The notes under the pieces are model-generated. The model made no database searches. It was given only the letters and a program-made list of their open reading frames with translations, and was not told the DNA's origin. Of a stretch of 48,368 bases of DNA, positions 7,545-38,075 are shown one piece after another; position 1 is the first letter of the stretch; every line of letters begins with the position of its first letter. The position numbers and the translations under genes are program-made. The stretch covers positions 1-48,368 of the forward strand of contig LCCV01000007.1 of NCBI GenBank assembly GCA_000998135.1, read 5' to 3'. The stretch comes from Parcubacteria group bacterium GW2011_GWA2_42_14. Its GTDB lineage: Bacteria; Patescibacteriota; Minisyncoccia; Sungbacterales; GWA2-42-14.

Positions 7545-7683
7545 GACCAAACCGTCTGAAAACTGTAAAAAAGTGCTTTTGTCATTCTGAGCGAAGCGAA
7601 GAATCCCGTGTTTAAGCCATTTTCAAAGACAGAGATTCTTCACAAAATTCAGAATGACAGTTTTCGGACGGTCTATCGCTAAA
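7545..7683. repeat. Family C inverted element
   Basis: aaccgtctgaaaactg...gtcattctgagcgaagcgaagaatc...gattcttcacaaaattcagaatgacagttttcggacggtct. Confidence 0.8.
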
Positions 7684-11558: not shown

Positions 11559-11709
11559 ATTCGAAATTCTAAATCCTAAACTTAAATAGCTTGTTAAGCA
11601 AGTTAAGTGAATTAAGTAAATTAAACTTAACCGGCTTAATTTGCTTAATTCACTTAAAAAACTGCAATTGGGATTTATTTAGAATTTAGATTTTAGGATT
11701 TAGAATTTA
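11550..11709. repeat. Family A copy A3: nested array with outer 7-nt arms and inner 9-nt arms, rplI stop to pyrG leader
   Basis: aaatcct aaattcg aaattct aaatcct / ttaagcaag ttaagtgaa ttaagtaaa ... ccggcttaatttgcttaattcacttaa / ttagaat ttagatt ttaggat ttagaat. Confidence 0.9.
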
Positions 11710-14029: not shown

Positions 14030-14434
14030 ATGTTATACCACCTCTATAAAAAAATCAAGTCATGGCTGGAATCTAATCAAAAAGACCTATTTTTGGCCGC
14101 AACCATTATATTGGTCAGCATAATTAGCTTTGGATTTGGTAGATTGTCCGCGATTTGGCCGGAAAAACAACCGATACGAATTGAAAAAAGCCAATTAAGC
14201 GAGTTAAGTGAATTAAGCAACGACGGAAACGACAAGCTTAACCCGCTTAACCAGCTTAATTCACTTAACCAGCCAAATGGCAAATATGTTGCCTCCAAAA
14301 ACAGCACTTTTTACCATTATCCCTGGTGTCCGGGGGCGCAAAAAATAAAAGAAGAAAATAAAATCTGGTTCCAGACAAAAGAAGAAGCGGAAAGCAGGGG
14401 ATACAAGCCGGCAGGAAATTGCGACGGATTATAA
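14030..14434 (+). CDS. Membrane-anchored protein with Ada-like metal-binding C-terminal region
   Basis: TM helix; YVASKNSTFYHYPWCPGAQKIKEENKIWFQTKEEAESRGYKPAGNC. Confidence 0.7.
   Translation: MLYHLYKKIKSWLESNQKDLFLAATIILVSIISFGFGRLSAIWPEKQPIRIEKSQLSELSELSNDGNDKLNPLNQLNSLNQPNGKYVASKNSTFYHYPWCPGAQKIKEENKIWFQTKEEAESRGYKPAGNCDGL
14195..14270. repeat. Family A array A4, in frame inside a CDS
   Basis: ttaagcgag ttaagtgaa ttaagcaac ... agcttaacc cgcttaacc agcttaatt cacttaacc; encodes LSELSELSN...KLNPLNQLNSLNQ. Confidence 0.9.
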
Positions 14435-16484: not shown

Positions 16485-16856
16485 TTACGCCCCGGATTTA
16501 ATACTCTGCAAAAGCTGAGTCAGCCATAAAAATGCCTTGTAAAACAAACCGGTAATAAAGCTAAAAAATTTAATTATATCCACTCCGGTTATATCCCTTA
16601 TATTATCATTAAATCCGGCGAATATGTCGTTATTAATCATATCCTTTGGGTTAAATATAAAAATTTCAATGGATATAAAATCCTTCAGTTTTTGGAATAA
16701 ATCATTCGGGCTAAAATTAAACGAATCCGTAGTGCTTGCCGAACTTGGCGATAATTGCCCGATATCGGAAAAAACCGCCTCAACGCCATATGCTGATGTC
16801 AAAATCATCGCAATGATTATTCCAATAAAGAGAATGTTTCTTTTATTTGGTTTCAT
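16485..16856 (-). CDS. Hypothetical secreted/membrane protein
   Basis: N-terminal signal/TM helix; no family recognised. Confidence 0.55.
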   Translation of the reverse strand: MKPNKRNILFIGIIIAMILTSAYGVEAVFSDIGQLSPSSASTTDSFNFSPNDLFQKLKDFISIEIFIFNPKDMINNDIFAGFNDNIRDITGVDIIKFFSFITGLFYKAFLWLTQLLQSIKSGA

Positions 16857-16860
16857 GGCG

Positions 16861-16940
16861 GAGTAAATTAAGTGAATTAAGCTGTTTAAGCAAGTTAAGC
16901 TTAATTTACTTAATTAACTTAACTTGCTTAACAGGCTTAC
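16861..16940. repeat. Family A array A5
   Basis: aaattaagtgaattaagctgtttaagcaagttaagcttaatttacttaattaacttaacttgcttaacaggctta. Confidence 0.85.
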
Positions 16941-16978
16941 TGAAATTTTGAATTTAATATTTTTTTATATTTTTAAAA

Positions 16979-24224: not shown

Positions 24225-24345
24225 ACTGTTCAAAAAGCCAAAAAGTTATTCCCTGAGCATGTCAAAGAGTAACTTTTTGGCTTATGTTTACAGGCCTTAG
24301 ACAAGCTCAGTCAATATAATTGGGGTTTCCATACGGTCTATTGCT
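24225..24345. repeat. Family D hairpin element, second copy
   Basis: gccaaaaagttattccctgagcatgtcaaagagtaactttttggctta. Confidence 0.75.
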
Positions 24346-27115: not shown

Positions 27116-27252
27116 TTTAAATCGAAATCCCAAACTTAAATAGCTTGTTAAGCAAGTTAAGTGAATTAAGTAAATTAAGCTTAACTGGCTTAACTCGCTT
27201 AATTCACTTAAAAAGCTGCAATTGAAATTTATTTAAAAATTAAAATTGAAAA
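27116..27252. repeat. Family A array A6 (dacA/mraY spacer)
   Basis: aatagcttgttaagcaagttaagtgaattaagtaaattaagcttaactggcttaactcgcttaattcacttaaaaagctgcaattg. Confidence 0.9.
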
Positions 27253-34924: not shown

Positions 34925-35095
34925 TAAATCCTAAATTCGAAATCCTAAATTCTAAACGTAAATAGCCTGTTAAGTAAGTTAAGTGAATTAAGTAAATTAA
35001 GCTTAACTCGCTTAAAAAGCTAAAATTGTAATTTGTTTAGGATTTTCCGCCAGAGGTGAATCCGCCTTCGGAGGAAAATATTAGGATTTAGGGTT
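34925..35095. repeat. Family A array A7 with outer heptamer arms and an inner ccgcc...ggcgg-type hairpin
   Basis: taaatcc taaattc gaaatcc taaattc...ttaagtgaattaagtaaattaagcttaactcgcttaa...ggattttccgccagaggtgaatccgccttcggaggaaaatattaggattta. Confidence 0.88.
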
Positions 35096-35551
35096 TTATT
35101 TAGCAAAATATTGCTTTATCAAATCACTGATTTTTCCCGGGGTCGTTTCGGCCTTAATGAAAATATCAACAGCCCCCAAATCTTTAATATTTTCTCTTTC
35201 GTCCGGATAAAGCATGTTGGTTAACACAAAAACAACTATTTTTTTTGTATCAGGGTCGCCTTTCAGCAGTTTTAAAACATCAATGCCATACATTCCCGGC
35301 AAGCGCAAATCAAGCAAAATCACATCGGGCTTTTCGGCTTTCGCGGTTTCAAAACCTTTCCGGCCGTCGTCCACGTGCAAAACTTGACACCCGACCCCTT
35401 CCAGATGGTTTTTATACATCTTTGCCAAATCCTGATCGTCTTCAATAATCAACACTTTTTGGGTTATACGAATGGGAATATCTACCATAACATTATTATA
35501 AATTAAAAAACGATGAATATCAATAAATATCGCGAAGCAAATATCCATCAA
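35096..35551 (-). CDS. Response regulator receiver protein (likely start at the internal ATG near 35488)
   Basis: KVLIIEDDQDLAKMYKNHLE, PDVILLDLRLPGMYGIDVLKLLK, VFVLTN. Confidence 0.92.
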   Translation of the reverse strand: MMDICFAIFIDIHRFLIYNNVMVDIPIRITQKVLIIEDDQDLAKMYKNHLEGVGCQVLHVDDGRKGFETAKAEKPDVILLDLRLPGMYGIDVLKLLKGDPDTKKIVVFVLTNMLYPDERENIKDLGAVDIFIKAETTPGKISDLIKQYFAK

Positions 35552-35591
35552 TATCAGATATTAATTGATACTTATTGATACTTGTTGATAT
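35509..35591. repeat. Array with about 10-nt period
   Basis: gatgaatatcaataaatatc...gcaaatatccatcaatatc...ttgatactta ttgatacttg ttgatattta ttg. Confidence 0.7.
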
Positions 35592-36623
35592 TTATTGTTT
35601 GGAATTTTGAAATAATAACCTGGCTTTGTCCCAAAATCCCCACTGATTATGCTTCTGCCCCATCCAATACCACCACTCTGCCCCCCAAAAATATATCGTA
35701 TCAAATCCTGTTTTTTTGACAAATTCAACGCGCTCCTCAAATTCCGATTCGGGAAAAACCGCCAATTGCTCTTCCAAAGCCGTTTCATAAATTTGCTTCG
35801 GATTCCAGGGTTCCATTTGAAATTCCACAACTATTTTCGGTTTTTTACCGGCAATAAAATCAGTTAATCTTGACTTGGCCCTGAAAAATCCTGGGCCGAT
35901 GGGATAACGGAACTGGCCAATCCAATTATTATAAATCTGAAAATACATTGTTGTCCCGAAAATATCGGCCCTTGACGCGGCCGGTATCCATCTGCCCAAT
36001 TCTCCTGAATCGGTAATTAAAACCGGGCGCGACGGATCAAGCGAACGAACCAGCTCAATTTCCCTTTCCAAAAATTCTTTATCAAATTCGGGGCATTCCC
36101 CAAACGGCAAAAACGGTTCATTCTCTACCTGCCAGTATTTGACGCTTTCATAATTTTTAAAACGGTTTATTGTTTCTTCTATATATTTTAATAATTTTTG
36201 TTGTTTATATTCTTTGTTCTGTGGTTGGTGGTTAGCGGCTGATTGTTGGTTGTTGAGCCAACCGGGTTCATGGCATTCGGGCCAGCGCGGAAGTTTTCTG
36301 CCGACCGCCAGAATTATTTCCGCATTCCTTTTTTCCGCCTCCCGAACCTGCCACCATAAATCATCAAAATCGAAACTTTCCTCCCGCGTTTCAATTTCGT
36401 CCCAATAAGCGGGTAATCTTAATTTTCTTGCCCCCAAATCATCAAGAAGAGCGGCATAAAGCGCCTTCCAATCCAGTCCCAATTTTTCAGCAAATGGCTT
36501 AGAGAAAGTAACGCCGTACCGCATTTGTTGCGGCGCGGGAAACGGGCGGGAAAGGTACCATAAAAAAGCACCGAACAACAACAAAATAAATACAACCAGC
36601 CACAGTTTAACCTTATTAATCAT
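35592..36623 (-). CDS. Membrane-anchored glycoside hydrolase-like (TIM-barrel) protein
   Basis: YWQVENEPFLPFGECPEFDKEFLEREIELVRSLDPSRPVLITDSGELG, VVEFQMEPW, FDTIYFWGAEWWYWM. Confidence 0.7.
   Translation of the reverse strand: MINKVKLWLVVFILLLFGAFLWYLSRPFPAPQQMRYGVTFSKPFAEKLGLDWKALYAALLDDLGARKLRLPAYWDEIETREESFDFDDLWWQVREAEKRNAEIILAVGRKLPRWPECHEPGWLNNQQSAANHQPQNKEYKQQKLLKYIEETINRFKNYESVKYWQVENEPFLPFGECPEFDKEFLEREIELVRSLDPSRPVLITDSGELGRWIPAASRADIFGTTMYFQIYNNWIGQFRYPIGPGFFRAKSRLTDFIAGKKPKIVVEFQMEPWNPKQIYETALEEQLAVFPESEFEERVEFVKKTGFDTIYFWGAEWWYWMGQKHNQWGFWDKARLLFQNSKQ
36218..36259. repeat. In-frame family E heptamer array
   Basis: tctgtgg ttggtgg ttagcgg ctgattg ttggttg ttgagcc; encodes NNQQSAANHQPQNK. 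Confidence 0.8.
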
Positions 36624-36626
36624 AAT

Positions 36627-36742
36627 TTATAAATCCCAAATCCAAAATTCCAAATAATCCAAATAACCAAAAAATAAAATATTTTGATATTTTAATTTTG
36701 AATTTATTTGGGATTTTAATATTGGGATTTTGAATTTAACCC
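36627..36742. repeat. Family F heptamer array
   Basis: aaatcccaaatccaaaattccaaataatccaaataacc...ttttgaatttatttgggattttaatattgggattttgaattt. Confidence 0.85.
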
Positions 36743-36745
36743 GTA

Positions 36746-37675
36746 TTATCCCAACGCCAACAACGCTAGCCCCGATACCACCAGCACTATCCCGATACTT
36801 TTCTGGTAAAGGGCCGGGCGCCTGAAATCTTCCGCCAGAATTTTCGGATATTTTCTGGAAAGCAATGCCGCAAAAATAAAAATCAAAGTGTATTCTACGC
36901 CTTGCATGGCGTTAATAATGCTTACCCTGCCTATGGATATGGCATAATCAAGCAGGAAAAAACCGGTTGCCCCCAAAAATTTATTAAGCATAAAAAAGGC
37001 TCCGGTGGAAGTTATGGCCTGAAGCCGCGAAGAATTCAAAATATCGTACCTTGACTCTTTTCCAAATAAAAACAAAATGGCAGCGATAAATCCGCCAAGG
37101 CGCGACCAAATAAAAGCGTTTATAAACGGGGTGTGGTTGGTTGCGGCTTTGAATAAAACATAAGTTAAAGCAAAAAGAAAAGCGGAAAGCAGAGTGATAA
37201 AAAATATTTTTTTTGTTTCCGGTTTTTGCACGCGGATGCCGTCCACCTTGATAGCCAGACTTATTAAAACTCCTCCGGCGATAAGAAATAAAAAAGCCAT
37301 TAATTCCATCCATCCTAAACTCTCACCCAAAAAAATCCGCGACAAGAGCAAAACAAATATGGGACTGAATCCGCCGATAACCGGTGCGATACGCGATGCC
37401 TCGTTTTTTTGAAGAATCACAAAAAAGGAATAAAAAGCCAAAACAGACAAAAATCCGGAAATAGTTGCAAATAAAAATTCTTTCAATGCTGGTATAAAAA
37501 AACCGAAGGGCGCCAGTAGTAAAGCAAAAATTCCGAAAATGCCGACCCAAAACGCGTAGGTTGAAGGATGGGAAATTCTTTTTTCCAGCAAAAACTTATC
37601 AATTATCGCCGTTGCGGCATGGAAAAAATAAGCAATAACGGCAATCAAAACCCAGCTTTTTAATAAAAAAGGCAT
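36746..37675 (-). CDS. EamA/DMT-family transporter
   Basis: About 10 TM helices; PVIGGFSPIFVLLLSRIFLGESLGWMELMAFLFLIAGGVLI. Confidence 0.88.
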   Translation of the reverse strand: MPFLLKSWVLIAVIAYFFHAATAIIDKFLLEKRISHPSTYAFWVGIFGIFALLLAPFGFFIPALKEFLFATISGFLSVLAFYSFFVILQKNEASRIAPVIGGFSPIFVLLLSRIFLGESLGWMELMAFLFLIAGGVLISLAIKVDGIRVQKPETKKIFFITLLSAFLFALTYVLFKAATNHTPFINAFIWSRLGGFIAAILFLFGKESRYDILNSSRLQAITSTGAFFMLNKFLGATGFFLLDYAISIGRVSIINAMQGVEYTLIFIFAALLSRKYPKILAEDFRRPALYQKSIGIVLVVSGLALLALG

Positions 37676-37684
37676 ATTCGTATT

Positions 37685-38075
37685 ATATCATATCGTTAAA
37701 AATCTTAAACTATAAAAATTAAAATCTAAACAATCCGGCATATTAAGCAAGTTAAGTAAATTAAGTAAATTAAGCTTAACTTGCTTAACCCGCTTAATTC
37801 ACTTAATAAGCTATAAAATTTGTTTAGGATTTTCCACCCAGACCGTCCGAAAACCGTCATTCTGAACTTTGTGAAGAATCTCTGCCATTCAAGATTGGTT
37901 TAAACACGAGATTCTTCGCGGATGGATTCGATAAACTCACCACAGGGTTTATCCTGAGATTCTTCCCCTTCGCATGGCTCAGGGTCAGAATGACGACCGA
38001 AGGACTCAAAATGACAAAAGCGCTTTTTTAGCAGTTTTCGGACGGTCTGTCGGCGGAAGATATTAAGATTTAAAA
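37685..38075. repeat. Family A array A8 containing a family C element in its right part
   Basis: ttaagcaagttaagtaaattaagtaaattaagcttaacttgcttaacccgcttaattcacttaa...ggattttccacccagaccgtccgaaaac...ttttcggacggtctgtcggcggaagatattaagattta. Confidence 0.88.

Follow-up and report, generated by a model that had tools for sequence, protein, structure and literature searches.

The window analysed here, the whole 48,368-nt stretch of contig LCCV01000007.1 from Parcubacteria group bacterium GW2011_GWA2_42_14, contains two related palindromic sites, F and G (37822-38072), each directly after a copy of the same AT-rich TTAAG ladder palindrome (Table 1). The preliminary description held that the units at 35.04 kb and 37.8-38.07 kb share their flanks and differ inside. 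This was confirmed by alignment: the flanks are alike and in the same order, and the interiors are unrelated. Hairpin F is bulged (its longest ungapped inverted repeat scores only 7) and folds as DNA with z = -2.3. At site G a long palindrome, of which the first C and the last G are part, stands on the lower stem of a hairpin whose tip, present at F, is missing; together with its flanks it folds with z = -4.6. No family threshold was reached in an Rfam search of 34.5-38.5 kb. The ladder palindrome, with a 9-nt period, has intergenic copies at 212-304, 11580-11672, 14174-14274, 16854-16946, 27134-27226, 34956-35030 and 37729-37821 of the window, and is far denser on this contig than on the other contigs matched by a 35-kb query.

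Table 1. Positions of the palindromic features within the window.
Feature	Position	Strand	Remarks
Second MITE of the family, 127 nt	7548-7674	-	ends checked; folds with z = -5.8
Decayed MITE with CCAAAAAGTTA interior	24225-24338	+	related to G000 C5:28.4 kb; alignment
Site F, paralogous hairpin without MITE (empty-like)	35036-35090	+	55 nt; sequence, alignment, folding
Site F left arm TTTAGGATTTTCCGCC	35036-35051
Site F tip AGAGGTGAATCCGCCTTC	35052-35069	+	18 nt without counterpart at site G; alignment
Site F right arm GGAGGAAAATATTAGGATTTA	35070-35090
TTAAG ladder palindrome, AT-rich (family D1), upstream of site G	37738-37812	+	counterpart 34965-35039 upstream of F
Site G left base of host hairpin, kept beside MITE, GTTTAGGATTTTCCACC	37822-37838	+	aligns with F left arm; pairs with right base
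Site G MITE (filled site), at the tip of the host hairpin, CAGACCGTCCGAAAACC...CAGTTTTCGGACGGTCTG	37839-38049	+	211 nt; ends, recurrence, folding
Left terminal inverted repeat CAGACCGTCCGAAAAC	37839-37854	+
Extra module of about 85 nt inside the site G MITE	37920-38004	+	absent from standard 127-145 nt copies; also present on its own at other places in the genome
Right terminal inverted repeat (GTTTTCGGACGGTCTG on the + strand)	38034-38049	-
Site G right base of host hairpin, kept beside MITE, TCGGCGGAAGATATTAAGATTTA	38050-38072	+	18/21 identity to F right arm

The similarity of the flanks exceeded all 2,000 mononucleotide shuffles on each side. The left flanks reached a local score of 47 (shuffles: mean 13.8, maximum 28; p < 0.0005), and no comparable second match to the left flank was found within the window. 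The right flanks scored 30 (shuffles: mean 12.4, maximum 26; p < 0.0005). Taken alone, the right flank is not unique in the window, with 34 at F and 33 near 10.58 kb, so that the ordered combination of both flanks is the convincing part. The relation of F to G is that of paralogues rather than alleles.

The element at 37839-38049 is a MITE: it is short and non-coding, has no gene of its own, is bounded by terminal inverted repeats and belongs to a family of dispersed copies. Ten bounded copies of 120-211 nt were found in the window's genome (G000) and further ones in five relatives from three families (G004, G015, G016, G022 and G031); the 211-nt piece of site G matches 34 stretches of G000. 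The ends are precise, CAGACCGTCCGAAAACT and its complement. Standard copies of 127-145 nt (C7:7.6 kb, in the window, and others on C6, C11, C4, C9, C2 and C1) match only positions 1-82 and 168-212 of the query, and copies on C10, C3, C2, C14 and C4 match parts of 71-206. Copies with other interiors (GTCATTGCGAGG, CCAAAAAGTTA, AACACCGGGTGTT) carry the same ends; since the ends are constant while the interiors vary, it is the ends that define the mobile unit. The inner arms GTCATTCTGA and GAAGAATCTC also occur within other end types in G000 (L003, L014, L016, L018-L020 and L025), for example GGGACTGTTGCCGAATG...CATTCGGCAACAGTCCC and GTTGAAATAGT...ACTATTTCAAC. Variants of these arms in the same genome, GTCATCCTGA / GAAGGATCTC and GTCATTGCGAG / GAAGCAATCTC, look like compensatory stem changes.

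The same 17-mer lies at both ends of a 1,535-bp insertion sequence (IS) in G004, a genome of the same family as G000, and the ends of the window MITE differ from it only at the 17th base on the left. Between these terminal repeats the G004 element encodes a 474-aa DDE transposase of the IS1182 family (NF033551, 343.9 bits with a cut-off of 270; Pfam DUF772 and DDE_Tnp_1). In G000, the right 99 nt of a G004-type IS (87/99 identical) are present at the start, that is the edge, of contig C16. A search of the assembled contigs of G000 gave no full transposase gene, which would fit repeated IS copies breaking the assembly; an active transposase may be, or have been, present in this genome. Among 384 genomes of the class, 6 contain the 17-mer with at most one mismatch; the reversed pattern, used as a control, gave two single matches. 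IS elements from Lachnospiraceae and other Firmicutes carry the same ends, as do elements of MITE size in sphingomonads and Neorhizobium. The latter elements (L135:5537-5695, L145:3951-4099 and L187:1084-1242; 149-159 nt, nearly the same ends), from Neorhizobium, Sphingobium and Sphingomonas, are possibly MITEs in Alphaproteobacteria. Elements of Lachnospiraceae and other Firmicutes or Coriobacteria with the same 17-mer at one end (L159, L164, L166, L173, L182 and L197) adjoin runs of G or C, targets that look unlike the hairpin targets of Patescibacteria; target choice may therefore vary among relatives or subfamilies.

Target duplications, a usual but not universal feature of MITEs, are absent from the bounded copies that have these ends. 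Of the two features for which a search had been proposed, pairs of empty and filled sites were found elsewhere, whereas duplications were not, with one exception: a diverged MITE at C1:65.9 kb of G000 (L024:1501-1640), with the same interior and GGGGCTGTCCC ends (GGGGCTGTCCCAAAAC), has a 5-bp direct repeat, AATAC, and is also flanked by CCTA/TAGG. It is the sole copy that resembles a duplication. Plain insertion with target duplication was rejected, as the copies with these ends lack duplications.

Filled and empty sites were compared by using the joined flanks of five 79-nt copies from G022 (Parcubacteria GW2011_GWA2_45_30), and of single copies from G015 and G016, as queries against related genomes. 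G015 belongs to the same genus as G022. Three of its four sites orthologous to G022 MITEs hold an unrelated hairpin exactly at the junction (inverted-repeat scores 16, 17 and 14), in comparisons made between species at 68-79% identity. Scores of 14 or more occur in 3.6% of random 70-nt intergenic windows and in 13.3% of whole gaps. The exception is uvrC, where there is no good hairpin. At the uvrB and RluA-family sites the outgroups examined have no hairpin insert, so the hairpin is probably older than the MITE; the most economical order there is no insert, then a hairpin, then the MITE in its place. The G015 hairpins resemble a double-hairpin family common in that genome, so REPIN-like elements were probably what the MITE overwrote. 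The anatomy of F and G recurs in G015 in the paralogous pair L118/L235: the outer stem is kept and the inner hairpin exchanged. All together, inverted-repeat targets without a sequence consensus were found at the three orthologous sites, at L118/L235 and at F/G. Loss of a hairpin or its tip with blunt junctions was seen at G and at L118/L235, as judged from paralogues or other species rather than alleles. Across 22 copies, pairing between the two flanks of a copy is better than that between permuted flanks (p = 0.008), as would follow if the base of a stem stays in place; in many copies of G000 no residual stem is visible. Searches for empty sites of G000 copies in genomes of the same family (with the 37.84 kb site outside the query) returned one-sided gene matches only, and those for G031 copies partial matches.

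Three of the 79-nt MITEs in G022 (L110:990-1068, L113:1019-1097 and L114:1123-1201) lie in frame within uvrB, uvrC and a gene for an RluA-family pseudouridine synthase, and each adds about 26 residues; the uvrB product scores 932 bits to NF003673. At the corresponding position in the sister genome, uvrB and the pseudouridine synthase gene carry a different hairpin, likewise in frame. Of the G000 copies examined, none is inside a reading frame of this kind, and those in the window are intergenic.

The proposal that one palindrome had entered the loop of another, or taken that loop's place, is supported by flanks more alike than chance allows and by the further pairs of empty and filled sites. 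On the sequence evidence, replacement fits better than insertion, because target duplications are absent and site G has kept the lower stem but lacks the 18-nt tip. There is a precedent within the same transposase family: the staphylococcal elements IS1272 and TnSha1 use hairpins as targets, whatever their sequence, and delete all or part of the stem-loop without duplicating the target (PMC5678879, PMC4923244). Because F and G match this mode, the best reading, which we consider likely, is that an IS1182 transposase moved the MITE into a hairpin and replaced its tip. The element at 37839-38049 would be non-autonomous and depend on an IS1182-family DDE transposase acting in trans, which would recognise its 16-17 bp ends; the target would be a DNA stem-loop, not a sequence. 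A cut in the stem would remove the upper stem and the loop, perhaps in the same event that brought the MITE, and the MITE would be joined bluntly, leaving no target duplication and lower stem on both sides. The MITE being a large palindrome in its own right, a hairpin would then rise from the truncated stem of another hairpin. Such an exchange of hairpin for hairpin would also explain most of the other filled sites for which there is a comparison. Since F and G are paralogous and the orthologous pairs lie between species, the hairpin of a sister site need not be the exact one that was replaced.

Alternatively, an ordinary MITE insertion into hairpin-rich intergenic DNA may have been followed by decay of the duplications and by small deletions, hairpins being merely common neighbours. 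Hairpins are indeed frequent (an inverted-repeat score of at least 8 in 47% of the intergenic gaps of G015), and several copies lack a visible residual stem. However, the near-identical, recent-looking 79-nt copies of G022 are also without duplications, strong hairpins lie at the junctions in three of four orthologous comparisons, where 3.6-13.3% would be expected, and two of the three hairpin-junction sites are within genes, at the same few codons; we therefore regard this explanation as unlikely. Recombination or template switching between palindromic repeats, with the interior swapped and no transposition at site G, is still less probable. Palindromes are prone to such rearrangement, and the interior of the window MITE is a mosaic of modules found elsewhere, and the 85-nt internal module is still well explained in this way; but the swapped segment has precise transposon ends common across families, and recombination between repeats does not predict the unrelated flanks at every site.

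The two inverted arms GTCATTCTGA...GAAGAATCTC of the MITE interior, together with a RAYT-like Y1_Tnp gene at C4:109 kb of G000, raise the possibility that the element is REPIN-like and depends for its movement on a RAYT (Y1 tyrosine) transposase acting via single-stranded hairpins. This we consider very improbable, and RAYT/REPIN was rejected as the mover: the gene is surrounded by a different hairpin, GCGAAGTCGGACTTCGC, the element ends match those of the IS1182 IS, and it is the interiors that vary while the ends stay fixed. No CAGACCGTCC ends were found in the 18-kb stretch around the gene. One GCGAAGTCGGACTTCGC hairpin lies in frame inside the RAYT-like gene (L055:7790-8518; C4:108.8-109.5 kb). 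Finally, chance similarity between two unrelated hairpins in similar AT-rich contexts is hardly credible and was rejected by the shuffles: the flanks are short and AT-rich, and the right one has its near-equal match elsewhere in the window, but both follow the same ladder repeat in the right order, and independent pairs exist elsewhere.

Replacement of a hairpin tip by an IS1182-mobilised MITE, as we propose, resembles the staphylococcal systems in transposase family, 16-17 bp ends, hairpin targets without consensus, stem-loop deletion and lack of duplication. It differs from them in that the movers are non-autonomous MITEs of 79-211 nt, themselves palindromes, in Patescibacteria, and in that the evidence is comparative, between paralogues and between species. 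Like other bacterial MITEs (PMC10969869), these elements are short, non-coding and mostly intergenic, with terminal inverted repeats common to an IS; unlike them, they have no target duplications. IS1182 and nested elements are not mentioned in that review (PMC10969869). REP/REPIN elements share with them the inverted hairpin arms, the intergenic location and a RAYT-like gene in G000, whereas the ends here are those of IS1182 and a different hairpin accompanies the RAYT gene; the REPIN-like doublets seem to be victims rather than movers. Rickettsia palindromic elements are likewise palindromic repeats in frame in conserved genes, a likeness limited to the three G022 copies; they differ in sequence and host, and the window copies are intergenic.

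The stem-loop-replacing mode, a rare one, is already known from IS1272, and the evidence for it in the literature that we found comes from a single staphylococcal IS together with its composite transposons (PMC5678879, PMC4923244). What is apparently new is its use by MITEs, in Patescibacteria, with a hairpin-for-hairpin exchange that builds nested palindromes, and the in-frame MITEs in uvrB, uvrC and the pseudouridine synthase gene of G022. A literature search of partial coverage returned no stem-loop replacement by MITEs, in Patescibacteria or hairpin for hairpin, and no such in-frame residence.

That tiny MITEs in an uncultivated phylum leave this footprint too points to stem-loop replacement as a trait of IS1182-type transposases, for which the 79-nt MITEs are natural minimal substrates in an assay. 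Hairpin replacement would account for the nested, mosaic look of the palindromic repeats in these genomes and, as the target would be a structure, the exchange could happen within genes in frame, as in uvrB and the pseudouridine synthase gene of a relative. We suggest, tentatively, that stem-loop-replacing transposition could be a general engine of palindrome turnover in Patescibacteria, in which IS1182 MITEs would overwrite REPIN-like and other hairpins and each other, make nested mosaic palindromes and swap in-frame hairpin inserts in essential genes. We know of no explanation for how the palindromic elements of Rickettsia spread; if true, this engine could also be a mechanism for coding palindromes of the Rickettsia type.
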